DNA of 54,855 nt from a virus. The notes under the pieces are model-generated. The model searched no databases. It saw nothing but the letters and a program-made list of their open reading frames with translations, and was not told where the DNA came from. Below, piece by piece: positions 1 through 44,922 of this stretch. The position numbers were made by a program, and so were the translations under genes. Where the stretch lies: positions 1 to 54,855 of the IMG/VR virus record IMGVR_UViG_3300031280_000001; one strand, written 5' to 3'. The number at the start of each line of letters is the position of its first letter. The stretch's first letter is position 1.

Positions 1-3000
1 CAACATCCATGGGAATTTCTTCACCACGTTCTCTATCCTTAGTGTACCGCTCGGCCCGATCTTCAATCTTTCTTATTTCCTCCCAAGCTTTGGCACGAAA
101 TTCCGGATTAGTTAATCCCTCTTCTACGATACCGCTAATAGTTTCAAATTTCTCAATACGCTGGTATCCGCTCAATGGATTGAAGTAACTCCGCTTAGCT
201 TTCTTTTTACCTGGGCCTTTACCAGTAAATTCAGTCATCGATTTGGGATTTACCTCTTTCTGAATACTAGCAATATACTTCTCGGCCTGCTGCCTACTTA
301 AACGATATTCAGCATCTTGAATCATCCGGGTTAAATCTTTCTTAATTGCTTCAACCTGGTTCCATCCATGCTTACCAATACTAATATTATTTATCTGACG
401 AAGTGTCCTGGTACGTACCGGTATCTTCAACCGATCAAACCGCGCTCTATTTTCCTTCAAGAAATCTTCCAGCTTCCCCCGGATCGCTTTATTTTCCTGC
501 TTAGTCATCATCCTTCCCTTACCTTCTGCCCTCTTTTGCTTTTGAGCCGGGGTATCTTCGTAGATTTTGAATTCATCTTCCCATCCTTTAACCAGGGATT
601 CACGCTCAGGCTTAGTAGCTTTTTCTACAGCAGCCCGCTCTATAGCCTTGGCTTCCATCTCTCGCTCTTTAGCTACATATGTAGTCTCACCAGTTTCCAT
701 ATTATATATGGCTTCCTGATTATACTTCTCACCAAGCTTCAGAGTTTCCTCTTTAGTCTTGGCAAAATTAACCAGGTCAATATAAGTCTGATCGGTTTTC
801 TCGTCGTACCAAGTTCCCACTCCGAGCTTTTCACCCTTCTCATATCTCTCCTGTAATTCAGCTTGATGTTTATCCTTGAACTCCTGAATACGCTCATCAG
901 TAATTTCCTTGCCTTTAATAATCTCTCCGGTTTCACCTATAACAAATGGAGTTTCGGTTTTAACCTTATCCATGTTAATAAATCCCGGCTTACCATCCTG
1001 CTTACCGCCATACATGAAAGTAGATCCACCAGTTTCAGCATGAAGCTGTGACTGAGTTCTCAATTCCTGCGGCCGGACCGGTGAAAGAATGTCCACACGT
1101 TTAGTTCCTCTCCAGTCTGATACTATACCTTCATATCCATCCAGATAAGCTTTCCTGCTAGCTTCCCGATATTCCCTAGCATAATTCCCGGTTTTGTCTG
1201 TTACATACCCTTTTGGATCTGCATTAAAATCATACAACTTATTTGCTGGGATCTTAACAGTATATGGTGTACGACCAGCTTTTGTTATATTCTTCTCTCC
1301 ATCTTCCGGATTAATATAAAACTCTACCTGGCCACGGCCTTCATTTGCTTTGACATCCTTAGCTCCAGCAGCCGTACCGTGCATTCCCGGCTCTAATTTT
1401 CCGCCCATAATTTCTTTGGGGCCCCAGTGATATAAAGTAACATCACCGGCTTCATCTATCTGAAGTTTGCTTTTAGTCTCCTCTGATAAAGTAGGCTTAG
1501 CTTCCGGTTTAATTTCAGCCTTCCGAATCTCAGCCTGATCGATTCTCCACTTTCGACGCTCATTCATTTTAATAGAGGCTGCAATATCAGCATCACCCAT
1601 GGAAGCGTATTTATCCTCCAAACTTATCTCTCCAACCTTTTTTCCTTTAGCTTTTTCAATAGCCTTACCAACTTCACTAAAGGAAGTTTCTTTAGTTGGA
1701 AACACTACGGACTCCATTATACCCTCTACTCGGCCTTCCGGCATATTTTCCAAAGCCTCAATAAAAGCTTCTTTGTTTCCAAATCCACGCCGGCCTATTC
1801 TATATCGAGAAATAGTAGGATCAGAAAATTTTCTTACCTCCTGCTCCTCTTCAGCAGCTGCCATTTCTTTATCAAACTTATCATGTAAAGCCTTACGCTC
1901 ATGCTCTGTAGCAAATTCAATAGTCTTACCTTCAGCTACTGATAATTCTGTATCAATTAACTTATATTTACCCTCTCCAATTTTCGTCAGACTACCAGAT
2001 ACTCTATCCATACCAAGTATATTGGCCTCAAATCCAGCATCAGTTACTTCACCAGGCTTAAGCTCTCCCCCCTCTTTTGTCTCTTCTAATCTTTTTTGTA
2101 CTTCAGGATCTTTTAACTGTGTTTCAATCTTGGCAGTTTTGGCCGGCTTAACTGGTTTAGCTGGGGCCTCAAGTGGAGCTTTCTCTTTACCCTCTAAAGT
2201 AATTGGTTTTGGCCGCTCCTTACCTTCAGGCGGATTCAAAGACTCATTCCATGTGGTATAGAATTTCCGCATTAATTTCTCCTGTTCAGCTGATCTATGT
2301 TCGGGCCGGGTTTCCCATGCATCCAGTACTTTATTAAGATCTATACCATTATCCATAGTACCATTAGATACAGCTTCTTTATCAGGTAATGATAACTTTT
2401 CGAATTCTCTGTGCTTACCTATGTCAACAGCCTCCTTATCCAGGAACCTGGCACTCTTTTCAGCTTCGCCTTTAGTAGTTGCCCTAACAGCATCTACCAA
2501 CATTTTACTGCCATCTTTGTCTACCTGGTAAGCTTTAATGCCGTAACCTTCCTCACTTTTAAATATCTCAACACTGTTTATTTCCGGCGTAATTTTAGCA
2601 AATTTACCAGTACGTTCGTACAATAATTTAGATTTTGTAATCCATGGAATATTCTCATCTGCCATTATATCAATAAATGTCTTATCATTCAATGTTTTCG
2701 AGAAAGGTCCTATTTCTCCCTCCGGTCTGTAACCTTCAACCATGTCCTTTTCCAATGGGGTGAATTCAGCATCGAATTCTTTTTTACGTTCGGGCTTATC
2801 AAATGCTTTTGACTGCTCAAAATATTTACTATATTTCTTAATGGTAGCTTCAGGGTGTTGAACATAACCAGCGCTTTTAGATCCGAGTACCATCTTTAAT
2901 GCATGCATCCAGTCAATACTACTCAAAGGCTTATCCTGCAAAAATGCATCACCGGCCCCAAATATACCTATTTCAGCTCCAAAAGCAATACCCTTTCCAC

Positions 3001-16163: not shown

Positions 16164-17510
16164 CTACTGAGGATTATGAGCAGTTATCAAATTTGAAGTG
16201 ATACCAGTTGTATCAAGATAGAAAGACGACAATGGGTTGTTGAACTTCAAGCTCAGCATTCCCTGTGCCCACCATTCTGTATAGTCCTGAATCGAACCAT
16301 TCGTCCCCTTAGGAGAAGTCTGACCCAGTTCAATGGACTGGTATCCTTGCATACACACAGGATGGATAGTCTCAATATCAAGAACAAAAATACGATGTTG
16401 CCAGGTAACTGGAAAACAAGAAACTTCCTTAAACAATTCAGTTGTTACAGGAACGAAACTCATGTCTCCGATCTTATAGATCTGAAGGTTCAGATCACCA
16501 ATCTTATCATCCGGCTTATACCTTAAACCTGTTTCTTTCCAGGTTTTAGACAATTCATACAGAAGCGCGTTCTGTGCGAATACGAAGCGAACTCCGCCTT
16601 CAGATTTATAATCTGTCTCAAAACACAAAGTTTCAAACGATTCCTGAAGAGTAGCTTTGGTAACACCTGAGGCACTTGCCGAACCAGCAGCAACCATACT
16701 CGGGAAGATTCCCTGCATAGTCATCGCTTTGTAAGGAGCAGCACCATTAGTACCAGGTACTGTAATATTTACTTCACCCCTCATACCATTCCACAACGAA
16801 ATGAACATATCTTGAAGCAACAGATCCATCTGTTCTTTCTTGTCCAATTCATAGTAGTTAGTATTTGCAAGGTTGGCAAATTTAGTCATTTCCTTACGGC
16901 TCCAACGCTTGTCACGGTGCATCAACTGAATATAGTTGTACCGCTCAATCTTGGACATTCTATCGTAATGAGTCAGGAAATTCTGACCGTCAGCAATAAC
17001 GCCAGCTTGAATAGAGAAATAATCATCGGTAGACACTGCCGTAAGATCAGCAGCACCATTAAATTTCTGGACGGTAACTACGTCACCGGACACGGTCTTG
17101 ACAATACCCTTACTGTTATCAGGATATACAAGAACTTTATTAATGGTTACATTAGATCCACCACCAGCTGTCATGGTAATAGCCTGGGTTGCACCAGCCG
17201 CTACACCACCAGCAGCTTTGAGAGCTACCCTACCAAAAGTCTTCTCAAGATATGTAAACACATCGTTAGCTTCATATTGTATGGGTTTATCCATAAGTAA
17301 CCGCAAAGTGAAATATTTCTTAGGGACCGCATCAAAGATTTCACGAGCTATCGCTCTGCGAATCAGAATAGTTTCGTCATAACTAAATTCCGAAGCATAT
17401 TCTGAACCTATAGGTTGCAGGTTCCATGGTGCCGGATTATGAACCTCTGCGGGCTCTACCGGGGATGGTTGGGCAATATAGGAATTTGCACTGTTAAAAG
17501 GATCAGCCAT
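16164..17510 (-). CDS. Major capsid protein (HK97-fold type)
   Basis: The 448-residue product lies directly after the scaffold-like gene and before a terminator, the normal place for a capsid gene. It has a disordered Asn/Pro-rich N-terminal arm, a helical region (ETILIRRAIAREIFDAVPKK), a Gly/Val/Thr-rich inserted beta module at about residues 95-165 (AITMTAGGGSNVTINKVLV), a long spine-like helix (YIQLMHRDKRWSRKEMTKF) and a beta-rich C-terminal domain. About 450-500 residues is usual for crAss-like capsid proteins. Assignment rests on order and fold-like layout. A short inserted domain on the capsid surface is plausible. Confidence 0.8.
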   Translation of the reverse strand: MADPFNSANSYIAQPSPVEPAEVHNPAPWNLQPIGSEYASEFSYDETILIRRAIAREIFDAVPKKYFTLRLLMDKPIQYEANDVFTYLEKTFGRVALKAAGGVAAGATQAITMTAGGGSNVTINKVLVYPDNSKGIVKTVSGDVVTVQKFNGAADLTAVSTDDYFSIQAGVIADGQNFLTHYDRMSKIERYNYIQLMHRDKRWSRKEMTKFANLANTNYYELDKKEQMDLLLQDMFISLWNGMRGEVNITVPGTNGAAPYKAMTMQGIFPSMVAAGSASASGVTKATLQESFETLCFETDYKSEGGVRFVFAQNALLYELSKTWKETGLRYKPDDKIGDLNLQIYKIGDMSFVPVTTELFKEVSCFPVTWQHRIFVLDIETIHPVCMQGYQSIELGQTSPKGTNGSIQDYTEWWAQGMLSLKFNNPLSSFYLDTTGITSNLITAHNPQ

Positions 17511-21046: not shown

Positions 21047-21607
21047 TTACTTTTCACTTGCGTTTTGATAATACTCTCTATCGAATCCTGTGCTATTTTC
21101 ATCTTCTTCCTCACCCCTATTGGATACTCCGAATCCCTCTTCCATCTTTGTAATCAAGCCCGGTAACTCTTGGGCTATCTTAGTAGTAGCATCAACAAAT
21201 TTCTTTATATCATTGACATCATCCTTATCCTTATACTTCTCAAGATCGCACAGATTTTCGTAATTATAGATAAGTTTCTCAATCATTGATCTGGCCTTCT
21301 CACGGATACCTGGCTCAACCACAGACATACGATCTATAGCTAAAGCCCATTTCTCATCAAAATTAAGCTTCAGCAACTCAGCCTTCAAAGTTCTATCCGG
21401 CGTATAGTTTGCTCGTTTAAGCGCCTCTATAATCCTAGATTTGTTATCCTCAATAGAAAGGATCTCAGAAGTAGGATTTGCATACCACCAAATGGTAATC
21501 AACTGAATTGCCGTTAAAAGTTCAAATTCCTTAATTCGTTTCAGTTCCGGGTAGCGACTGCGATAATCTGCGGGCCTGACCTTGTACGGATCGAATATCT
21601 TCCTCAT
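21047..21607 (-). CDS. Conserved protein between terminase and portal, 186 aa
   Basis: The start lies inside the terminase gene, overlapping its last 77 nt in another frame, so the two are probably translated as a coupled pair. The product is helical and charged (KRIKEFELLTAIQLITIWWY, then KLNFDEKWALAIDRMSVVEP), with an acidic tail (GEEEDENSTGFDREYYQNAS). A packaging accessory role is likely from position. The family is not recognised. Confidence 0.6.
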   Translation of the reverse strand: MRKIFDPYKVRPADYRSRYPELKRIKEFELLTAIQLITIWWYANPTSEILSIEDNKSRIIEALKRANYTPDRTLKAELLKLNFDEKWALAIDRMSVVEPGIREKARSMIEKLIYNYENLCDLEKYKDKDDVNDIKKFVDATTKIAQELPGLITKMEEGFGVSNRGEEEDENSTGFDREYYQNASEK

Positions 21608-23852
21608 AGGTTAAATTATTATAGTTTTCCTTCACTGCTATACGAGACAAATTCCAATTGGCATCGCGTACCGTTTTATATCTTATTCTAGTTTTGCTAA
21701 TCTGACTGTTCTGTCTGAAAGTCTTCTTATGAGAACATGCCATACGAGCAATGTAGGCATATGTGATAGCATCCAAAGCATCATCATAGTGCATCAACTT
21801 ATTTATCGGCCCCCAACTTTCTTTCCCAGTTGGTTTAATCTCGTATGCAAAGGTACTTAATTGATCGAAGAACACCGAAATATAAATATTGTTATGGTAA
21901 GTTCGGAATACTTCAGTCATATATTCTATGACTGCATCGGATCGTAATCCCTTCTTATCCAAGCCTATATCTCTTGCACCCCCCTGAACTTTAGCCGGCA
22001 ATTGAGTATTAAAAATGAGAGATCCAAGGAACCCTTTTAGCTCTTTATAATCAATATAGTTAGTTCCAATGTTCGCTTCTACTAATTCTGGTACACCTCT
22101 TTTTACTTGATTCTCTACATCATAATATAATCCCAGCAACACTGTCTGCAAAAACACTTGCTTATGTTCATGAGATTTCCGGTAATTTAACAGGGCTGAA
22201 CAAGTCTTGAGATGATCATCCCATATAGCACTGGCTTGTTTTGAATGCCCAGACTCCGTAGCAATAGGGTCAGTTCCCTGCCAGTATCGATTTACCCAAT
22301 GCTGTTCCGGGTGTTGGAATATCCAAACTGTTCCCTTCCTATCCGGATCATCATCATCCAAAGCAGTAAACTTGGCATCTATGATACGATATGGAACGTC
22401 GCTCTCAGGCGGCATGGGATCATCATAATCGTAGATTGGTTCGAAGTATCCAAGTGTTGGACGTGCTCGGGAACCGAGCGCCCTGCACCGCTCAAGACCA
22501 CCTTCTATAATCTCCCGGGATACCAACGTACTAGAATTACTCAGAAACATATCCTTGAAAGTAGATGGGTAATGCTGATGGAACTGGATCTTGGAAGTTT
22601 CCAAATCAATATCTCTTTCTGTCGCTCGGGCGCCGTAATACCAAGCCCGTTCTTTCAGGTAATCTTCTTTACTCAGTCTAGCATGCCAGCTAAAGAATAA
22701 TGGTACAAAACCGCTTTCAAACTGCTTGGCTTCCCACAGACCTAGAATACGATACCATTCTTTTTCATAAGCTCCTTTACCTTTATCCATTTCACCGCCG
22801 GTTCCCCACATCCAGATCTGACGACGTAATACAAATTTACCAGTTACCGGATCATTCCAAAACATGGTAGGCCTTGCTTCGTTCAGCATTGGACCCAGGA
22901 TACCAATGTTCCCAATCTCGTCAATGAGGGCCAGCTGAGGAGATCCCCCGTTGATTGCCGTTTTCTTAGGCGCTACGACGTCACATCTACTATTAGGATA
23001 TCCTTTCTTTCCTTTACCGGGTTTATCTGATAACCAGAATCTCTGGCCACTATCGGACTTCACTGGTGGCTGCAGCCATCGGGGAAGGGCCCCAAACGGA
23101 TATTTCAATTTATCAGTAAAGATCTCCTCAACTGTATCTTTATCCTCAGCAATAAATTTTATATAATAGTTATTGTGAATGAGCATCATCTTGAGTGCAA
23201 CAATACCCATGGCAGAAGTAAATCCAATCTGTCGTCCTTTACCACCAATTATATTATAGCGGCAATCGAACAAATAGAAAATTACGGCATGGTGCTCCTT
23301 CGCAAAGTAACGCATGGTACCGGTTGCAGCATCACCCTCCTTCAATTCTCCATACTTATTTGCAAAATATAAAGTACTTTCTTTTATCCGGTCCCGCTCT
23401 TGGTTTGCATATTCCCGTTTAGCGTCCGGATCTTTGTAATTGGTAATATTATCTTTCTCCTCCAGCCATCGAAATGCCTGGGCCTTGTACCGCTCGAATA
23501 AAGGATATTTGATTGCTTGAGGAAATGGACCATATACAATAGAATTGATCCAATTTATAAATTCATCACTATGATAAAGGTTACTTTCAGGAAGCCAGTC
23601 TTCCTTTGTAAGATTATCTTTAAACCTGGAGAATGTACCGGAATGTGCAAATGGGTTATTTTCCCAGCGCTTCATCTTCTTTTGTAGGATCTGCTGACCG
23701 GGAGATAGCTTTATAATTTCAGGACCATCTTTGATATACCCCTCCCTTCTCAACAGTTCTACTTGCTGTCGATTAAGAATACCTTTCTGATATTGCTTAT
23801 GAAGGTATGCAAGATAGCGATTTCTCGACGCCTCCGTGCCCGTAATAGCCAA
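21531..23852 (-). CDS. Terminase large subunit
   Basis: The 773-residue packaging motor has an N-terminal ATPase half and a C-terminal nuclease half. An adenine/Walker A-like region is present near residues 195-215 (YNIIGGKGRQIGFTSAMG), and Walker B with the catalytic Glu at about 300 (LALIDEIGN). The nuclease domain shows RYWQGTDPIATESG (first acidic residue), LVEANIGTNY, and a C-terminal YDDALDAITYAYIAR motif with the last metal-binding Asp. Length agrees with crAss-like terminases. It follows an 89-aa gene by 3 nt. Confidence 0.92.
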   Translation of the reverse strand: MAITGTEASRNRYLAYLHKQYQKGILNRQQVELLRREGYIKDGPEIIKLSPGQQILQKKMKRWENNPFAHSGTFSRFKDNLTKEDWLPESNLYHSDEFINWINSIVYGPFPQAIKYPLFERYKAQAFRWLEEKDNITNYKDPDAKREYANQERDRIKESTLYFANKYGELKEGDAATGTMRYFAKEHHAVIFYLFDCRYNIIGGKGRQIGFTSAMGIVALKMMLIHNNYYIKFIAEDKDTVEEIFTDKLKYPFGALPRWLQPPVKSDSGQRFWLSDKPGKGKKGYPNSRCDVVAPKKTAINGGSPQLALIDEIGNIGILGPMLNEARPTMFWNDPVTGKFVLRRQIWMWGTGGEMDKGKGAYEKEWYRILGLWEAKQFESGFVPLFFSWHARLSKEDYLKERAWYYGARATERDIDLETSKIQFHQHYPSTFKDMFLSNSSTLVSREIIEGGLERCRALGSRARPTLGYFEPIYDYDDPMPPESDVPYRIIDAKFTALDDDDPDRKGTVWIFQHPEQHWVNRYWQGTDPIATESGHSKQASAIWDDHLKTCSALLNYRKSHEHKQVFLQTVLLGLYYDVENQVKRGVPELVEANIGTNYIDYKELKGFLGSLIFNTQLPAKVQGGARDIGLDKKGLRSDAVIEYMTEVFRTYHNNIYISVFFDQLSTFAYEIKPTGKESWGPINKLMHYDDALDAITYAYIARMACSHKKTFRQNSQISKTRIRYKTVRDANWNLSRIAVKENYNNLTYEEDIRSVQGQARRLSQSLPGTETN

Positions 23853-27049: not shown

Positions 27050-27460
27050 TTACAGAAGTTCTTTGAGATCGATATTTCGAAACATGTTTGGACCGGGGTT
27101 CGTTGCCCCGCATCTCCACAAAAAGTCCAACCGGTAGCCAAAAGGGGTGAGGATAAGATCACACACCCGGGCGTTTATTCGGCTCTGGCCTTGGGGGATA
27201 ATACGACGCCGTGCAAAAATGTCTATGCTGAGGAGCATGAAGATATACCGCCGGAAGATTCGTATTTTCCCCCCCTGGTACAGGGGAGTAAGTTACAAGA
27301 TTGTAAGATATGGGGATGAATGTTTTGACAGCATGAGAGTAGGGTATCAGGAGAGGACGAAGCTAATTAACCGGCACAAAGGTTATACAACTAATTCCTC
27401 AAGGCCGCTTCCAGGAAGCAGCTTAGCTAGGAGCCTGAGCCCCTTCGGGGGTTTCAGGTA
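27050..27460 (+). ncRNA. ssrA: Probable circularly permuted tmRNA
   Basis: The 3' tRNA-like half comes first. A T arm at 27096-27112 (CGGGG, loop TTCGTTG, CCCCG) is followed directly by CATCTCC (27113-27119) and an A. The 5' half comes later. GGGGATG at 27312-27318 pairs over 7 bp with CATCTCC (one G-U) and runs into TGTTTTGACAGC, the conserved tmRNA D-loop segment. Further pairing AGCATG (27330-27335) with CATGTT (27086-27091) and GGTATC with GATATT fits helix P2. An intervening segment of about 190 nt joins the halves. Downstream, GAGGA (27353-27357) pairs with TCCTC (27396-27400), possibly part of PK1. An ORF ending QEAA then TAG (27424-27426) is a candidate tag. A UUCG-capped hairpin at 27434-27458 closes the gene. 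Resume codon and pseudoknots are unresolved, and CCA is not encoded. Confidence 0.7.
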
Positions 27461-37309: not shown

Positions 37310-37471
37310 CTATTCCTGTTTAGATTTCCATTCATCAAAAACCTTACTCCAAAATTTATATGGATATTTTGTATAATCTTCTTCATGCCAATCAATAATA
37401 AACTTTATTGCCACTTCTCGGCTTACTTCATTAAAAGCCTGAAGGATAATTTCTATTATTTGATTTATCAT
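37310..37471 (-). CDS. Hypothetical protein starting at a tRNA 3' end, 53 aa
   Basis: The start is MINQIIEIILQAFNEVSREV at 37471. The longer frame would translate through the tRNA. Only two nt separate the ATG from the tRNA discriminator base, so 3' processing of the tRNA would give a message starting CU-AUG, in effect leaderless. The product is helical (EVAIKFIIDWHEEDYTKYPY). Function is unknown. Confidence 0.6.
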   Translation of the reverse strand: MINQIIEIILQAFNEVSREVAIKFIIDWHEEDYTKYPYKFWSKVFDEWKSKQE

Positions 37472-37473
37472 AG

Positions 37474-37549
37474 TACGGGAGAGAGGATTTGAACCTCCCC
37501 CTCCGGCTCTTCCGCCGACGCTCTGGCCCATGGTTTAAGCTACTCCCGT
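37474..37549 (-). tRNA. Atypical tRNA with six-base anticodon loop
   Basis: The acceptor ACGGGAG/CTCCCGT is perfect and the T arm has loop TTCAAAT. D arm GCTT/GAGC carries a long loop with GG. The anticodon stem TCGGC/GCCGG leaves only six bases, GGAAGA, without T33. Depending on which base is missing the anticodon is GAA (Phe) or GGA (Ser). It may be non-decoding. Confidence 0.65.
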
Positions 37550-37573
37550 TACACTTCTCCAAGGATTGTGTTG

Positions 37574-37646
37574 CGCTGAAGGAAGGATTTGAACCTACAC
37601 TTTCCAGGATGAAAACCTGACGTCCTACGCGATAGACGATAAGGCC
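37574..37646 (-). tRNA. tRNA-Glu (TTC)-like, acceptor stem does not pair
   Basis: The D arm, anticodon stem TCAGG/CCTGG with loop TTTTCAT, and T loop TTCAAAT are good. The expected 5' strand GGCCTTA does not pair with the 3' strand CTTCAGC, and the T stem has one T-T mismatch. It may be a decayed tRNA or one kept for another use. Confidence 0.6.
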
Positions 37647-37652
37647 ACATAG

Positions 37653-37693
37653 TGCCGGAGTGAGGAATCGAACCCCCATGCCCAGTCTCCGGC
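37653..37693 (-). ncRNA. Minus-strand tRNA-like minihelix, 41 nt
   Basis: GCCGGAG and CTCCGGC form a perfect 7-bp acceptor-like stem. Between them are only nine bases (ACTGGGCAT) and a T arm GGGGG / TTCGATT / CCTCA, followed by A73. No D stem or anticodon arm exists. It lies 6 nt upstream of the Glu-like tRNA. It parallels the plus-strand array but with a 7+5 bp split. Confidence 0.7.
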
Positions 37694-39802: not shown

Positions 39803-39985
39803 CAAACACGGTTTACAAATCAGGAAGTACAAGATCTGTTTGAAATTACCCGTTTCTTTCATAATGGATCACAGTTCAAATTTAAGGGTGTGGTTTACAC
39901 CTTGACTTACGGCGGTGCTACAGTCCGCGTATTAAAACAAAGCGGTGCTGGTAACTATAAAGAAATAACTTTAAAACGTAAATAA
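39794..39985 (+). CDS. Hypothetical protein, 63 aa
   Basis: MEQQTRFTNQEVQDLFEITR begins a helix, followed by a beta part (FKFKGVVYTLTYGGATVRVL). It shares the MEQ start and leader with the 60-aa gene at 41130. Its stop overlaps the next start by one base. Confidence 0.6.
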   Translation: MEQQTRFTNQEVQDLFEITRFFHNGSQFKFKGVVYTLTYGGATVRVLKQSGAGNYKEITLKRK

Positions 39986-40656
39986 TGGAACAACAATTTT
40001 ATAATAAACAGTACACCCGTACCCAGGTAAAGAACAATATCCTGAAAGTATGGGACGCAACCAATGAGACGGACCGTTTTGACTGGTATAAGGCTGCAAA
40101 TGATTTTGCACACGGGTTGGCTAATATAGCACCTAGCAATGATGGATATCATTTAGACGTTGCCAGGGCGTGCGGTGTAATTGCAGCCCTGAGTCCGATG
40201 GTACATTGGAATCGGAATAAGAAATTGGCACGTGAATTGATTGAAGACTCTAAGTTATTGAACGTGTGGATAATAGTTGATCATATGGCATGCTTAAAAG
40301 CCAATGCTCGCAAAGCAGCGGCTATCTTATTAAGCGATGGCAGCGATGATGCAATTTTAGATATCCTGAAAGGCAAAAAGACAAGTGCATTCTTTCTAAA
40401 TATCTTATATCCTAACAAAGCAATATCTTTGACAATGGATAGACACGCAATATCTATTGCCCTGGGCAGGAAAATCACAAAGGGTGAAGAGAAGTATTTA
40501 CAGCTAACTGCCGGACAGTACAAGTTCTTAGTTGAATGCTATAGATGGACAGCTGCAAAGCTTAAAGTCAATCCACTGATTTTACAATCAGCTACCTGGG
40601 TATTGTGGAGAAAAGAAGGCAGAAACACTGAATTACCTTATTATCTTGATTTTTAG
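39985..40656 (+). CDS. Helical protein resembling HhH-type glycosylase folds, 223 aa
   Basis: The pattern ACGVIAALSPMVHWNRNKKL, then ACLKANARKAAAILLSD, KTSAFFLNILYP and ISLTMDRHAISIALG recalls the all-helical HhH-GPD-like proteins found in actinophages and other phages. These have a Lys/Asp region near MDRHA but mostly no proven activity. It is the largest protein of the array region. DNA repair or base-modification enzymes are candidates; confidence in function is low. Confidence 0.55.
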   Translation: MEQQFYNKQYTRTQVKNNILKVWDATNETDRFDWYKAANDFAHGLANIAPSNDGYHLDVARACGVIAALSPMVHWNRNKKLARELIEDSKLLNVWIIVDHMACLKANARKAAAILLSDGSDDAILDILKGKKTSAFFLNILYPNKAISLTMDRHAISIALGRKITKGEEKYLQLTAGQYKFLVECYRWTAAKLKVNPLILQSATWVLWRKEGRNTELPYYLDF

Positions 40657-40747: not shown

Positions 40748-40807
40748 TGCCAGTTAACGGGCAGCCTGAAATAATAAGGGCGAAGGGTTCGAATCCCTTT
40801 ACTGGCA
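40748..40807 (+). ncRNA. tRNA-like element A, 60 nt
   Basis: A 7-bp acceptor TGCCAGT/ACTGGCA and T arm AAGGG / TTCGAAT / CCCTT enclose a 28-nt connector containing ACGGGCAGCC. It is shorter than a full tRNA but longer than the other elements. It may be an intermediate form. CGAC follows. Confidence 0.7.
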
Positions 40808-40832
40808 CGACTTTTAATTAAATACAATTATA

Positions 40833-41039
40833 ATGAAAGACAAATTTAACTTAAATGGCATTGATTACAAGGTAGTTAATGGTTTAGTTTACAAGCAATC
40901 ACAGGGTATATTAGACCCATGTTACAAAGGTGACAGTAGTGTATTGGATGAGTTTTGCAGAATACATAGCTTAACACTATATCAGAGGCCTAAAGGTGTT
41001 CATGCATACGGTAACCAGCACGGATTACGTACGCAATAG
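40833..41039 (+). CDS. YKV-x-x-GL family protein, 68 aa
   Basis: KDKFNLNGIDYKVVNGLVYK, then DPCYKGDSSVLDEFCRIHSL, is paralogous to the 58-aa gene at 42144 (DFNGRNYKVVNGL, TPCYQGDNVMLDAYC). Two conserved Cys suggest a shared fold. It lies between elements A and B, and its TAG stop ends on the first base of element B. Confidence 0.65.
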   Translation: MKDKFNLNGIDYKVVNGLVYKQSQGILDPCYKGDSSVLDEFCRIHSLTLYQRPKGVHAYGNQHGLRTQ

Positions 41040-41080
41040 CCAGTATGGTATCTGCCTGGGTTCGACTCCCAGGCATAGCA
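41039..41080 (+). ncRNA. tRNA-like minihelix B
   Basis: GCCA / GTATGGTATC bulge / TGCCTGGG - TTCGACT - CCCAGGCA / TAGC-A. The 8-bp T stem is perfect; the outer four pairs have one C-A mismatch. Its first G is the G of the upstream TAG. Confidence 0.7.
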
Positions 41081-41091
41081 CAAATATGTTT

Positions 41092-41138
41092 AATTATTAC
41101 ATATTATTAGTAATTAATAACTTAGTAACATGGAACAA
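41092..41138 (+). promoter_or_regulatory. Duplicated leader, copy 2
   Basis: It has the same blocks and length as 39756-39802, with TAACTTAG before the ATG. Confidence 0.55.
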
Positions 41139-41312
41139 AATTATTTGAATTCACTACGTGTGAACCTGGAAGCAGCTGCCGACAGGAAGGCAGTAGAGCG
41201 CAAGGCAGAAGCCAAAGCGCAAAGATTAGCAAAGATCCTGGTCATCGGATTACTATTAACCATTGCCGTAATTGTAATGTTGTTCGGCGATAGCATAACT
41301 AACTGGTCATGA
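41130..41312 (+). CDS. Tail-anchored membrane protein, 60 aa
   Basis: A basic Ala-rich helix (NLEAAADRKAVERKAEAKAQ) is followed by one membrane segment (ILVIGLLLTIAVIVMLFG). It lies between elements B and C, with the stop 3 nt before C. A C-tail-anchored topology is likely. Confidence 0.6.
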   Translation: MEQNYLNSLRVNLEAAADRKAVERKAEAKAQRLAKILVIGLLLTIAVIVMLFGDSITNWS

Positions 41313-41315
41313 TTA

Positions 41316-41355
41316 GCCCTTATGGTACTCCCCGGGTCCGATTCCCGGGAGGGCA
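41316..41355 (+). ncRNA. tRNA-like minihelix C
   Basis: GCCCT/AGGGC (5 bp), bulge TATGGTACTC, T stem CCCGGG/CCCGGG and loop TCCGATT. ACGA follows. Confidence 0.75.
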
Positions 41356-41384
41356 CGACTTTTAATTAATTAATATTTAATATT

Positions 41385-41546
41385 ATGAAAGCAAAAAATG
41401 TGATAAATGAGCATACGGAAAAAATAGCGCTCAAGACTTTGAAAATGAATTCTACCATATGCGGAGTAATGGGTCAAACAAAAGAAGAGGCCATTAAGAA
41501 TTTGAAAGCATTTGGATATTCAGATAAGGAAATTAAATCTATTTAA
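41385..41546 (+). CDS. Hypothetical protein, 53 aa
   Basis: ATG at 41385, TAA at 41544. The sequence is helical and basic (INEHTEKIALKTLKMNSTIC, then KEEAIKNLKAFGYSDKEI). The second half may be a small helix-hairpin DNA- or protein-binding unit. It lies between elements C and D. Confidence 0.55.
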   Translation: MKAKNVINEHTEKIALKTLKMNSTICGVMGQTKEEAIKNLKAFGYSDKEIKSI

Positions 41547-41558
41547 TTTAATATGAAA

Positions 41559-41601
41559 GCCTGCACGGTATCAGGTCTGGGTTCGATTCCCAGACCAGGC
41601 A
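41559..41601 (+). ncRNA. tRNA-like minihelix D
   Basis: GCCT/AGGC outer pairs, bulge GCACGGTATCA, 8-bp T stem GGTCTGGG/CCCAGACC and loop TTCGATT: 12 bp in total. ACGAC follows. Confidence 0.8.
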
Positions 41602-41626
41602 CGACGTTTAACCAATTCAAAAAGTC

Positions 41627-42073
41627 ATGAAAGATTTAAATGAAATTTCAGAGATTACAGTTAGTTATTCACCTAAAATAAAAAACAGTGATAGGGCAAT
41701 TATCACATCTAGCCAAAAAGTTTATGATTTGGTTCGTAATAACTGGTCTGAAATAAGTATCAGAGAGGAAATGAAGGTTTTGTTTTTAAACAGGGCAAAT
41801 AAAGTACTTGGTATTTATGAGCTAAGTAAAGGCGGTATTAGCGGTACAGTAGTAGATGTACGACTATTATTTGCAGCTGCATTAAAATCTTTAGCCTGTG
41901 GTATTATACTGATTCATAATCACCCTTCAGGTAATTTAAAGCCTAGCGATGCAGATATAAAAATAACAAATAAAATACGTGAAGGCGCAAAACTTTTAGA
42001 CCTCACTGTATATGATCATCTGATAATATCGGATGAAGGATATTACAGTTTTTCAGATGAGGGTATTATTTAG
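41627..42073 (+). CDS. RadC-like JAB-domain protein, 148 aa
   Basis: LLFAAALKSLACGIILIHNH, then HNHPSGNLKPSDADI, is the RadC/JAB motif (HxH...SxxD) that binds one zinc in a MPN fold. An N-terminal segment (VYDLVRNNWSEISIREEMKV) is also RadC-like. The helix-hairpin-helix of full-length RadC is absent, as in many mobile-element versions. Its role in DNA metabolism or defence is unsettled. TAG stop overlaps element E by one base. Confidence 0.9.
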   Translation: MKDLNEISEITVSYSPKIKNSDRAIITSSQKVYDLVRNNWSEISIREEMKVLFLNRANKVLGIYELSKGGISGTVVDVRLLFAAALKSLACGIILIHNHPSGNLKPSDADIKITNKIREGAKLLDLTVYDHLIISDEGYYSFSDEGII

Positions 42074-42116
42074 CCCGTATGGTACTTAGGTAGTGGTTCA
42101 ATTCCACTACCGGGCA
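42073..42116 (+). ncRNA. tRNA-like minihelix E
   Basis: GCCC/GGGC, bulge GTATGGTACTTA, T stem GGTAGTGG/CCACTACC and loop TTCAATT. All 12 pairs are Watson-Crick. The first G is the G of RadC's TAG. ACGAC follows. Confidence 0.85.
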
Positions 42117-42143
42117 CGACATTTAACCAATATTTAATTTAAT

Positions 42144-42320
42144 ATGAAAAGTTTTGATTTTAATGGCCGTAATTACAAGGTAGTGAACGGCTTGGCCCAC
42201 ACTGTAGAGAATAGTATACACGACAGTATAATGGTAACTCCTTGTTACCAGGGAGACAATGTTATGCTGGATGCATATTGTGATACCCTTGGTGTTAAAC
42301 TGTATCAAAGATCAAATTAG
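42144..42320 (+). CDS. YKV-x-x-GL family protein, 58 aa
   Basis: ATG at 42144, TAG at 42318. KSFDFNGRNYKVVNGLAH and TPCYQGDNVMLDAYCDTLGV are paralogous to the 68-aa product at 40833. TAG ends on the first base of element F. Confidence 0.65.
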   Translation: MKSFDFNGRNYKVVNGLAHTVENSIHDSIMVTPCYQGDNVMLDAYCDTLGVKLYQRSN

Positions 42321-42362
42321 CCCGTATGGTACGCGTCCTTGGTTCGAGTCCAGGGACGGGCG
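42320..42362 (+). ncRNA. tRNA-like minihelix F
   Basis: GCCC/GGGC, bulge GTATGGTACGC, T stem GTCCTTGG/CCAGGGAC (one T-G) and loop TTCGAGT: 12 bp. GCAA follows. Confidence 0.85.
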
Positions 42363-42401
42363 CAATTATTCCTTATTATTTGTACCTAATATTTTAATAA
42401 C

Positions 42402-42623
42402 ATGCAATTATCAAAAGAAAAATTATGCGAAGCGCTGGAAATATGCGCTGAAAATCACAGTACGCTATTAACTATTAACTCTATTAAAAAAGGTAATATC
42501 GTATCAGATGCTGACTCCTTGATTATTCATAAATGCGTACCGGCAGTAATTAACAAGTTAAAGGATGCTGACTTTATGTTGGGCATGTGTGATCGTGGTA
42601 TGTATGTTGAGTATATCAAGTAA
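42402..42623 (+). CDS. Hypothetical protein, 73 aa
   Basis: Helical protein (QLSKEKLCEALEICAENHST, then HKCVPAVINKLKDADFMLGM). It lies between elements F and G, and its TAA stop directly abuts element G. Confidence 0.6.
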   Translation: MQLSKEKLCEALEICAENHSTLLTINSIKKGNIVSDADSLIIHKCVPAVINKLKDADFMLGMCDRGMYVEYIK

Positions 42624-42665
42624 ACCTGTATGGTATGAGCAGAGGTTCGAATCCTCTGCCAGGTA
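42624..42665 (+). ncRNA. tRNA-like minihelix G
   Basis: ACCTG/CAGGT (5 bp), bulge TATGGTATGA, T stem GCAGAGG/CCTCTGC (7 bp) and loop TTCGAAT: 12 Watson-Crick pairs. The A-T outer pair replaces the usual G-C, a compensatory change. ACAA follows. Confidence 0.85.
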
Positions 42666-42782
42666 CAATTTGGCCTATTTGGGTAATACCTAGCATCCAC
42701 TCACTTCGAGATCGTCGCTTAGACGCGCTCCTATGAAGCCGAATTTTTCTAAATTAATATATTTAACTAAAAAACAGTAAAA

Positions 42783-42995
42783 ATGGCAAAAAGAAGAATT
42801 GTTAACAGTAGAAGGGTCGCCAGGGGCAATAAGTCCGGTGGTGGTAAATCCTCTGCTTATACTCAGAAAATCGAGCAGCAAAAGCAGGGCAGGTTCAGCG
42901 ATAAATCTCCTTTCAGTGTTCATGACGGTGGAATTGGCCTGAGTTTGAATGAAACAAACAGACGTAGGTTTAATTTACGTAAAAAAGAGGATTAA
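42783..42995 (+). CDS. Basic small protein, 70 aa
   Basis: A very Arg/Lys/Ser-rich N-terminus (AKRRIVNSRRVARGNKSGGG) followed by a polar tail; nucleic-acid binding is likely. It overlaps no element and precedes the 54-aa gene by 2 nt. Confidence 0.55.
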   Translation: MAKRRIVNSRRVARGNKSGGGKSSAYTQKIEQQKQGRFSDKSPFSVHDGGIGLSLNETNRRRFNLRKKED

Positions 42996-42997
42996 TC

Positions 42998-43162
42998 ATG
43001 ACTTATGAAGAAAAAAAGACAATAGCTGACAAGTGGTTGACTAGGGAAGCATTCATGTCCTGGGATGAATTAGCTGATACCAACAGTCTCCATGATTGTG
43101 AAACAGAAGAAGATATCATTGAAGCTTGTGATGAAAGATTATTAACAGATATGATGGAATAG
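42998..43162 (+). CDS. Acidic small protein, 54 aa
   Basis: ATG at 42998, TAG at 43160. The product is acidic and helical (WDELADTNSLHDCETEEDII). Its TAG ends on the first base of element H. Confidence 0.55.
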   Translation: MTYEEKKTIADKWLTREAFMSWDELADTNSLHDCETEEDIIEACDERLLTDMME

Positions 43163-43203
43163 CCTGTATGGTGTAAAGGGGAGTTCGATTCTTCCCTCAG
43201 GCA
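43162..43203 (+). ncRNA. tRNA-like minihelix H
   Basis: GCCTG/CAGGC (5 bp), bulge TATGGTGTAA, T stem AGGGGAG/CTTCCCT (7 bp, one G-T) and loop TTCGATT: 12 bp. ACAA follows. Confidence 0.85.
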
Positions 43204-43232
43204 CAAATTTTAACTAAAATTGGAGGTAAATT

Positions 43233-43472
43233 ATGTTACGTAAAATTAATGAAATTGCAGCAGAGATCCGTAAAGACTGGAAAAAAATCAACTATGAAGC
43301 TAGGCCGTACCTGGATGCTATGACTGAGATTGAATCAGCAAATGATCGGTATTACTATGATTCTGCCGCTTCGGTCATTCGTTATTTCTTATCCAATGCG
43401 ACCGCCTGGAAAGGTGAGACAGCTCGCAGGATCAAGAAGGAACTGAATGAAATGATTGAAGGGAGGTACTAA
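43233..43472 (+). CDS. Hypothetical helical protein, 79 aa
   Basis: Charged helices (INEIAAEIRKDWKKINYEAR, then ATAWKGETARRIKKELNEMI). A GGAGG sequence lies 7 nt before the ATG, unusual for this genome. It overlaps the next start by one base (TAATG). Confidence 0.6.
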   Translation: MLRKINEIAAEIRKDWKKINYEARPYLDAMTEIESANDRYYYDSAASVIRYFLSNATAWKGETARRIKKELNEMIEGRY

Positions 43473-43753
43473 TGGATTGGACAGAATTTGTTAGGCAGAA
43501 CCTTACCATATTGGATCTCAGATTTATGGTAACAAAGCCCAGGCATCCCAGGTATGAATGGAAAGGCAATTATTGCCACCATATCAACTTGTGGACACAG
43601 CATGGCAAGAAAAGACTCTACATTCCCCTTTCTCTGATATCAGATGCTGGTTACATAGACCTAAGCAAAAAGAAATGTTTCTACCAGGATATGGAGGGAG
43701 CTAAGGAGAAAATATTTGAGGTATTTAATTATCTCACTGAACACGCTGGATAG
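43472..43753 (+). CDS. Hypothetical protein, 93 aa
   Basis: Mixed fold (FVRQNLTILDLRFMVTKPRH, WKGNYCHHINLWTQHGKKRL). The last ten bases and the TAG stop lie inside element I, so the end of the protein is encoded by the element's 5' strand. Confidence 0.6.
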   Translation: MDWTEFVRQNLTILDLRFMVTKPRHPRYEWKGNYCHHINLWTQHGKKRLYIPLSLISDAGYIDLSKKKCFYQDMEGAKEKIFEVFNYLTEHAG

Positions 43754-43786
43754 GCAACGTCCCCGGTTCGACGCCCGGGCCAGTGC
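43744..43786 (+). ncRNA. tRNA-like minihelix I
   Basis: CGCTGG/CCAGTG (6 bp, one G-T), connector with ATAGGCAACG, T stem CCCGG/CCGGG and an 8-base loop TTCGACGC. The TAG stop of the upstream gene sits at the base of the connector, where T8-A9 would be in a tRNA. It is more divergent than the others. Confidence 0.65.
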
Positions 43787-43817
43787 GATTTATGTTTAAC
43801 TTAAAAATGGAGGTATA

Positions 43818-44084
43818 ATGGCTAAGAAATCTAATGAGGAACTGGGGTATATTATCCCAGTTAAACGGAGACTGGAACCCGGAAAATATGTGTTCGGATA
43901 TGCCAGATCTCTTGAACCAGATAATAGAGGACAGATAAAAGTGAGAACTTCCACTATGGAAACCACTAGCTGGCTAGGTACATCGGTCATTCACGTGCCC
44001 GAAGGTTTTGAAATCTATAAATCTGCACCGCCTAAAGCTAAAGATGTAGCTGATAGGTATATTTATGGAACAGATCCAATTTAA
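43818..44084 (+). CDS. Hypothetical protein, 88 aa
   Basis: GGAGG precedes the ATG. The sequence is beta-rich (YIIPVKRRLEPGKYVFGYAR, GQIKVRTSTMETTSWLGTSV). The TAA stop ends on the first base of element J. Function is unknown. Confidence 0.6.
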   Translation: MAKKSNEELGYIIPVKRRLEPGKYVFGYARSLEPDNRGQIKVRTSTMETTSWLGTSVIHVPEGFEIYKSAPPKAKDVADRYIYGTDPI

Positions 44085-44126
44085 CCCTGTATGGTACTCG
44101 TCCGGGTTCGTTTCCCGGGCAGGGTT
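44084..44126 (+). ncRNA. tRNA-like minihelix J
   Basis: ACCCTG/CAGGGT (6 bp), bulge TATGGTACTCG, T stem CCGGG/CCCGG plus a T-G pair, loop TTCGTTT. 12 pairs. This is the last element of the array. Confidence 0.82.
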
Positions 44127-44162
44127 CGAGTAATATTGCTCAAGTATTAAAATTATTCACTT

Positions 44163-44405
44163 ATGAAGATTGAAATTATGTCATGGCAAGACGCTCTTCA
44201 TTTAATGATGAGGGCAGAAAGCATACATGACTGGAATCAGAAACGCCAGATCGTAAAGTATAATGTTGATCCCGAACAAAGGACGACAATTTTAAATGCT
44301 CTGGATGCTCAGAAACTTTGTCCTCATGTAGCTAAGTTGAATCACTGGTCTAAGCCAGTAAAAACTAAATCAACTATTTATGGAAAAAATTCAAAAACAA
44401 ATTGA
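44163..44405 (+). CDS. Hypothetical protein, 80 aa
   Basis: Helical, with several Trp/His (IMSWQDALHLMMRAESIHDW, then DAQKLCPHVAKLNHWSKPVK). It overlaps the next gene by 26 nt. No family is recognised. Confidence 0.55.
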   Translation: MKIEIMSWQDALHLMMRAESIHDWNQKRQIVKYNVDPEQRTTILNALDAQKLCPHVAKLNHWSKPVKTKSTIYGKNSKTN

Positions 44406-44922
44406 CGCCTTCTTAAAGAGGGCAACAATCATCAAGGCCGAAATGCGTAGGCATGAAGCAGGTATGTTGATTACGGATCAAATAAATGAAAGTCTTATAT
44501 TTATTAGTCCCAAAGCAAGCTATGTTTATGAGATGACTTATGTTAATAATTATGTAAACCGGGCCAAAGGTATTGAGCCTGGGCAACTATTATGGCATGA
44601 TTACATCTTGGTGCCTATCAGAGAGTGTAATCGGAAAGACAATCCGGAATTATTTTTGGAAATCCTGAAATCCAGCATGAAAATTGTGCCTCATCGGGCA
44701 TATGAAATCTTTGTTGATGGTAAACATCTTAAAAAAATGTCAACCTTTGGCAGAGCAAAGAGCTTTGTTTATGAGCTCAAACGAGCAGCCAATAATGCGA
44801 TGGATGAAAGATACCAGTCATTCAAAAACATAAAACGTATCTGGATTGTAGATCCTGCAGGCAATAAAACATGGTTCATCATGGACTCGAATCCAACTTA
44901 CGCACATTACAATCCCTTTTAA
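44380..44922 (+). CDS. Hypothetical protein, 180 aa
   Basis: Soluble alpha/beta protein: an N-terminal helix (IQKQIDAFLKRATIIKAEMR), a beta core (AYEIFVDGKHLKKMSTFGRA) and C-terminal KRIWIVDPAGNKTWFIMDSN. No family is recognised. It ends just before a terminator and closes the minihelix operon. Confidence 0.6.
   Translation: MEKIQKQIDAFLKRATIIKAEMRRHEAGMLITDQINESLIFISPKASYVYEMTYVNNYVNRAKGIEPGQLLWHDYILVPIRECNRKDNPELFLEILKSSMKIVPHRAYEIFVDGKHLKKMSTFGRAKSFVYELKRAANNAMDERYQSFKNIKRIWIVDPAGNKTWFIMDSNPTYAHYNPF

Follow-up and report, generated by a model that had tools for sequence, protein, structure and literature searches.

Ten short elements lie between small plus-strand genes of a phage recorded in IMG/VR as IMGVR_UViG_3300031280_000001 (positions 1-54,855; this whole stretch of 54,855 nucleotides (nt) is referred to below as the window), and most of them share the plan of a transfer RNA (tRNA) reduced to its acceptor stem, a minute D-arm and its T arm. 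Numerous unrelated phages, many of them linked to Bacteroidota hosts, carry the same motif. We put it at even chances that the elements represent a widespread and hitherto unrecognised class of phage RNA, in which mini-tRNAs devoid of the anticodon arm split operons into separate mRNAs, the 3' end of each resembling a tRNA and the 5' end often bearing a hairpin. The array had been noticed in a first-pass annotation made from the sequence alone, which described it as ten tRNA-like minihelices of a conserved RNA.

A covariance model (R1) was built from 30 elements, 29 of which come from other phages and one, at position 44084, from the window. It recovers nine of the ten window elements, eight independently (E-values from 1.8e-12 to 4.3e-5) and the one at 44084 by construction. 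With an independent descriptor, six strong elements were detected in the array, and 20 dinucleotide shuffles of the window yielded no element as strong. At each of the ten sites the sequence is as the first-pass annotation gave it, except that the first element begins at 40749 rather than at 40748. Seven window elements fit a common register of 12 base pairs (bp). Of their 84 cells 82 are paired, compared with 59 when the 3' strands are permuted, and none of 2000 permutations matched this value. The T stems had been described as almost fully diverged yet still pairing, and in the same seven elements all 49 cells are indeed paired (32 after permutation). Up to four pair types occur per position of the register.

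The consensus of the window array consists of an outer stem of 4-6 bp, the heptamer TATGGTA, 2-5 nt, a T stem of 5-8 bp with the loop TTCGANT, and a 3' end that reads ACGA, ACAA or similar. This shared plan holds for most of the elements, but the one at 43744 is degenerate, the one at 40749 is three-armed and the outer stem at 41039 contains mismatches. The anticodon arm, likewise said to be missing throughout, is absent in nine of the ten; the element at 40749 keeps a third arm. What had been taken for a short bulge is actually a D-arm, a hairpin of 2 bp capped by a UGG loop, which the first-pass annotation overlooked. It corresponds to the heptamer N-A-UGG-U-N' and occurs in the compensatory forms UA-UGG-UA, AA-UGG-UU, CA-UGG-UG, GA-UGG-UC and UU-UGG-AA; in Polaribacter phage P12002L the D stem is apparently longer (TTAC-TGGT-GTAA).

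Our pattern scans of IMG/VR set a lower bound on abundance and do not sample the database systematically; counts derived from them refer to the matches listed. The scan pattern made no demand for an outer stem. Nevertheless, an outer stem in register is present in 47 of 100 distinct matches with TATGGTA (1.6 expected with the flanks permuted) and in 58 of 124 with AATGGTT (1.7 expected), as opposed to only 10 of 92 with the mispaired heptamer AATGGTA, in which the outer D pair is broken. In 103 of 112 seeded matches, the acceptor and T stems add up to 11-13 bp, the split varying from 5+6 to 7+6, and the consensus T loop is present in all aligned elements. The elements show the marks of the acceptor/T domain of tRNA, a predicted coaxial helix of about 12 bp and a consensus T loop. 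The invariant GG of the D loop, together with the invariant C of the T loop, suggests the usual docking at the elbow. In the training alignment, two-sided changes occur in 13 of 14 pairs, with 160 compensatory cells compared with 40 after shuffling, a count for which the two main stems had in part been selected beforehand. Because of this preselection, we place the weight on the flank-permutation test and on the constancy of the acceptor plus T length. The proposed tRNA-like geometry with a D-loop-like GG is thus supported by compensatory change, which is seen across unrelated phages, as well as by placement and by the absence of Rfam matches. Neither of the two outcomes that were to speak against a conserved RNA, a lack of covariation in homologues and tRNA debris scrambled in relatives, was encountered.

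Placement of the elements is equally specific. The order stop codon, element, start codon on the sense strand is found for 98 of 158 elements compared with 8.5% of random sites, the stop codon lying 4-15 nt upstream of the element or overlapping its first bases. The run of small plus-strand genes in the window lies between 40,656 and 44,405, and each of the ten gaps of at least 64 nt between them contains an element, whereas none of the three coupled gene pairs (gaps of 2, -1 and -26) does. Six of the ten elements start at the last base of the stop codon or immediately behind it. Loci L288 and L215 show a comparable pattern, with elements about 10 nt past the stop and coupled pairs free of elements; in L234 and L171 the pattern is less clear. 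Tandem copies are seen in L218 (contig IMGVR_UViG_3300028883_000018), where five near-identical elements follow each other at intervals of about 150 bases; the arrays of other loci are diversified.

Many elements are accompanied by hairpins. The first-pass annotation overlooked a downstream hairpin that is frequent in other phages: 83 of 143 elements have one just on the 3' side compared with 20.6 in shuffled sequences, in many phages after a gap of 1-7 nt, and in L288 the majority of copies read element-ACGA-hairpin. Hairpins just 5' of the element are also in excess (56 compared with 22.6 shuffled).

The 3' tail follows the pattern N-C-W-A, in which A or T is followed by C (dominant at position 74), A or T, and A. 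Only 2 of 109 elements have C at position 75; the tail is CCA-like yet almost never CCA. The genuine tRNAs of element-bearing loci have the same N-C-W tail. CCA is encoded in 3 of their 51 tRNAs, compared with 420 of 848 over all loci; this count was anchored on the T loop, the end points reported by ARAGORN being variable.

With moderate confidence, we interpret the elements as minimal natural tRNA mimics that serve as substrates of host RNase Z, perhaps also of RNase P, in a form of tRNA punctuation. The enzymes of tRNA maturation are implicated because of the minimal acceptor/T-arm fold, the CCA-avoiding tail, the CCA-less phage tRNAs and the hairpins at the predicted ends. CCA-less tRNA precursors require RNase Z or exonucleases, plus CCA addition, and RNase Z works on such precursors. 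The elements would act in cis within a polycistronic phage mRNA. The acceptor stem would stack on the T arm over 11-13 bp and the UGG loop of the D-arm would dock on the T loop in the manner of G18/G19. Host RNase Z, the tRNA 3' endonuclease, would then cut behind the discriminator base. In many phages the downstream mRNA would begin a few nucleotides ahead of a hairpin; in the window it would begin ahead of an AU-rich leader. The upstream mRNA would have a tRNA-like structure at its 3' end, to which the CCA-adding enzyme could attach a tail. A cut by RNase P on the 5' side may occur as well, most likely where a spacer or hairpin separates the stop codon from the element. Given how often elements overlap the stop codon, we favour cleavage by RNase Z on the 3' side as the general step. 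The outcome would be a transcript split into stable mono- or bicistronic mRNAs with defined ends, and the benefit may lie in stability or in separate expression. Bacterial RNase P is known to read the acceptor/T stack as a ruler (PMC4919913), to cleave synthetic acceptor plus T-arm minihelices (PMC11143913) and to act on mRNAs, including the lac operon, and on phage RNAs (PMC4919922).

Several observations weigh against this interpretation. Window elements mostly abut or overlap the stop codon, so that canonical cleavage by RNase P would often leave the stop damaged. They also have no downstream hairpin, but AT-rich leaders instead. In the control region (+60..92) hairpins were found in 48 of 143 cases, and part of the hairpin excess is therefore general. 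The contrast in CCA encoding may partly reflect common ancestry of the sampled phages. Finally, folding alone could be enough for an element to stabilise 3' ends, with no cleavage at all.

The last point leads to an alternative that we regard as unlikely, namely that the elements serve as an uncleaved structural cap, the tRNA-like fold blocking 3'-5' exonucleases or slowing decay of the upstream cistron. The fold is stable, it is positioned directly at stop codons, and in the absence of cutting its overlap with the stop poses less of a problem. However, a plain hairpin would suffice for such a purpose and would explain neither the conserved features (T loop, UGG loop, total length of 11-13 bp, CCA-like tail) nor a second hairpin right behind the element. 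It is distinctly improbable, in our estimate, that the target is some other tRNA-binding factor (a ribosome-associated factor, a CCA-adding or modifying enzyme, or a tRNA-targeting defence for which the element is a decoy), the elements regulating translation reinitiation or countering defence. Such a role would fit the retention of the elbow parts and the loss of the anticodon arm, the target of many anticodon nucleases, but a trans-acting decoy does not need sense-strand placement between spaced genes. Intergenic hairpins between cistrons are typical of terminators, attenuators and antitermination sites; yet no U-run follows the elements, and conservation of the T loop and tail would be superfluous for termination, so a role in transcription is very improbable. 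Least credible of all is tRNA debris or a mobile tRNA-derived repeat spreading without function: the third arm at 40749, the genuine tRNAs nearby and the tandem copies of L218 would suit it, but the stems diverge almost fully with pairing kept, the elements sit precisely in gene gaps, and phages whose proteins show little or no homology to those of the window array carry them too.

We also compared the elements with known RNAs. No Rfam 15 family exceeds its gathering score on the elements, either in the array or in ten element-bearing loci. Neither ARAGORN nor Rfam (RF00005) calls a tRNA in the array. Two tRNA-like families stay below their gathering scores: mascRNA-menRNA (RF01684) reaches 17.2 bits at element 10 (42.5 required), and matches to transfer-messenger RNA (tmRNA; RF00023/RF04321) in the array are of 7-15 bits (47 required). 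Among natural systems, punctuation of mitochondrial transcripts by tRNAs is similar in that small structured RNAs separate the genes of a polycistronic transcript. Mitochondrial junctions of this kind are marked by incomplete stop codons, which resemble the overlap of stop and element in the phages. The mitochondrial punctuation marks are functional tRNAs, however, whereas the phage elements have no anticodon. In plant mitochondria, t-elements are tRNA-like structures at mRNA ends that are cut by RNase P and RNase Z, do not encode CCA, and are CCA-tailed but not charged (PMC11658184). The phage elements likewise lie at the borders of coding regions, within what gene order suggests is one transcript, and the job proposed for them is similar. 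Unlike the phage elements, which form arrays of up to ten, t-elements are organellar and number only a handful per genome; the phage elements differ further in being anticodon-less minihelices that overlap stop codons and in that their cleavage is only predicted. The tRNA-like element of mascRNA/menRNA sets an RNA end via RNase P and RNase Z (PMC4919922), but it belongs to mammalian nuclear long noncoding RNA and keeps a small anticodon-like arm. The tRNA-like domain of tmRNA has an acceptor, a T arm, a D loop and no normal anticodon arm, whereas the phage elements possess neither an mRNA-like domain nor the long P2 helix. Similar in form, too, are the synthetic RNase P minihelices AT1 and pMini, composed of acceptor stem, T stem and T loop only (PMC11143913), in contrast to which the phage elements are natural and have a 2-bp D-arm. 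The first-pass annotation knew of no described family of this layout and placement, and besides the lack of Rfam matches we found no description of such phage elements in the literature searched, which stops short of preprints and most subscription papers. Punctuation by tRNA-like structures is known as a principle from organelles; both this class of phage RNA and its minimal form appear to be new.

The exact pattern scan of IMG/VR yielded at least 120 loci, and the AATGGTT scan likewise at least 120, with up to about ten copies per phage. Apart from contigs identical to the window, RadC is the only array protein with relatives in other fetched loci, and the element-bearing phages therefore do not form one lineage. 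A tight pattern applied to 84,980 bacterial and archaeal species genomes found 17 stretches, many of them on short contigs of Bacteroidota or Clostridia metagenome-assembled genomes (MAGs). Fourteen of the 17 score well with the model, although four from insect guts may represent another RNA. In ten host genomes or MAGs, together about 32 Mb, there are at most two model matches per genome at E <= 1e-4, on which grounds a tandem or host-genome repeat was rejected. Of 18 named phages examined, two cultured ones carry clear unannotated elements: Cellulophaga phage phiST (KC821604.1, 43837-43881) and Polaribacter phage P12002L (48139-48189). The start annotated for gp056 of phiST (43844) falls within the element, and the ATG downstream of the element is the likelier start. 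No named phage relative was found by tblastn with open reading frame (ORF) 16164-17510, taken as the major capsid protein, or with ORF 21534-23852, taken as the terminase, and a DNA search with four element-bearing loci found none either. Nor did we find a diverged array in close relatives: viral contigs matching ORF 39985-40656 are all 100% identical, and ORF 44380-44922 has no matching viral contigs.

Other sequences surfaced in the scans. L061, L101, L080, L021, L029, L112 and others share a different recurrent sequence, GAGTATGGTACTATTGTAGGTTCGAGTCCTACCTGCTCCACAAAAGAGTTCATTGACAT, which ends in TCCACAAAA and has no minihelix outer stem. The Bacteroidales MAG contigs L155, L162, L163 and L167 have in common a longer conserved sequence, in which a part resembling a T arm and acceptor precedes a conserved stretch (GTACAGGTGG...); Rfam has no match to it in L155, L163 or L167. 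In Weissella paramesenteroides (L169, 6203-7086), a GOLLD RNA, a weak element-like match (27 bits) and a tRNA are neighbours.

The ten elements of the array, all on the plus strand, differ in detail. The first (40749..40810; 22.4 bits with R1, E 4.3e-5) has a 6-bp acceptor GCCAGT/ACTGGC, D-loop-like AACGGG, a 5-bp T stem, tail ACGA and, in its predicted fold, the extra arm GCCT/GGGC between acceptor and T arm. The second (41039..41083; 36.7 bits, E 3.5e-10) combines the imperfect outer stem with an 8-bp T stem and tail ACAA, its first base being the last base of the TAG stop of ORF 40833-41039. In the third (41316..41358; 30.8 bits), GCCCT/AGGGC and a 6-bp T stem add up to 11 bp, the tail is ACGA and a TGA stop lies 3 nt upstream. 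The fourth (41559..41604; 27.6 bits) has GCCTG/CAGGC, the D-arm variant CACGGTA and tail ACGA, 12 nt behind a TAA stop. Three elements begin at the last base of a TAG stop: the fifth (42073..42119; 30.7 bits), with GCCCG/CGGGC, GTAGTGG/CCACTAC and tail ACGA, at the end of the RadC gene; the sixth (42320..42365; 26.3 bits), with GCCCG/CGGGC, TCCTTGG/CCAGGGA and tail GCAA; and the eighth (43162..43206; 35.7 bits), with GCCTG/CAGGC, AGGGGAG/CTTCCCT and tail ACAA. The seventh (42624..42668; 43 bits, E 1.8e-12), with ACCTG/CAGGT, GCAGAGG/CCTCTGC and tail ACAA, abuts the preceding TAA stop. The degenerate ninth (43744..43785; CGCTGG/CCAGTG, AGGC replacing TGGTA) is missed by R1 and barely folds (z -0.3); the upstream stop lies inside it, and its placement is like that of the others. 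The tenth (44084..44128) has ACCCT/AGGGT (or ACCCTG, giving a 6+6 split), GTCCGGG/CCCGGGC and tail TCGA; it starts at the last base of a TAA stop and scores 53.1 bits, but belongs to the training set. A further minihelix-like element on the minus strand (37650-37693; GCCGGAG/CTCCGGC, tail ACTA; 24.7 bits with R1, E 6.7e-6) sits among tRNA genes. Degenerate tRNA-like sequences lie between real tRNA genes at 37471-37637 on the same strand, among them a partial Rfam tRNA match (37582-37637) and a fold resembling tRNA that ends near 37471. The window phage encodes a portal protein, an SbcD-like protein, a Dda-like helicase, an amidase and RadC.

The window also carries a permuted (two-piece) tmRNA gene at 27058-27426 on the plus strand (48.6 bits, gathering score 47), with a possible tag frame ending ...QEAA-stop. 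Among 36 element-bearing contigs, six have a tmRNA above the cut-off (four permuted, two standard), all six being at least 90 kb long. Large control contigs, searched for the permuted form only, contain it in 3 of 22 (24 searched, two with elements set aside). These controls are not clearly different; the association between elements and tmRNA is suggestive, not decisive. Much less certain than the RNA class itself is the thought that a 5' cut in stop-overlapping elements might leave a truncated stop (UA) and thereby call for tmRNA rescue.

The elements resemble natural versions of the minimal acceptor/T-arm substrate that has been studied for decades as synthetic RNAs, and the cultured phages phiST and P12002L allow direct testing of the processing idea. 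If it is true, annotators of phages rich in small uncharacterised genes would gain a sequence mark of cistron boundaries, and bacterial genetics a compact part that cuts and stabilises. It would also mean that several unrelated phage groups reuse the tRNA maturation enzymes of their hosts for mRNA processing, as mitochondria do.

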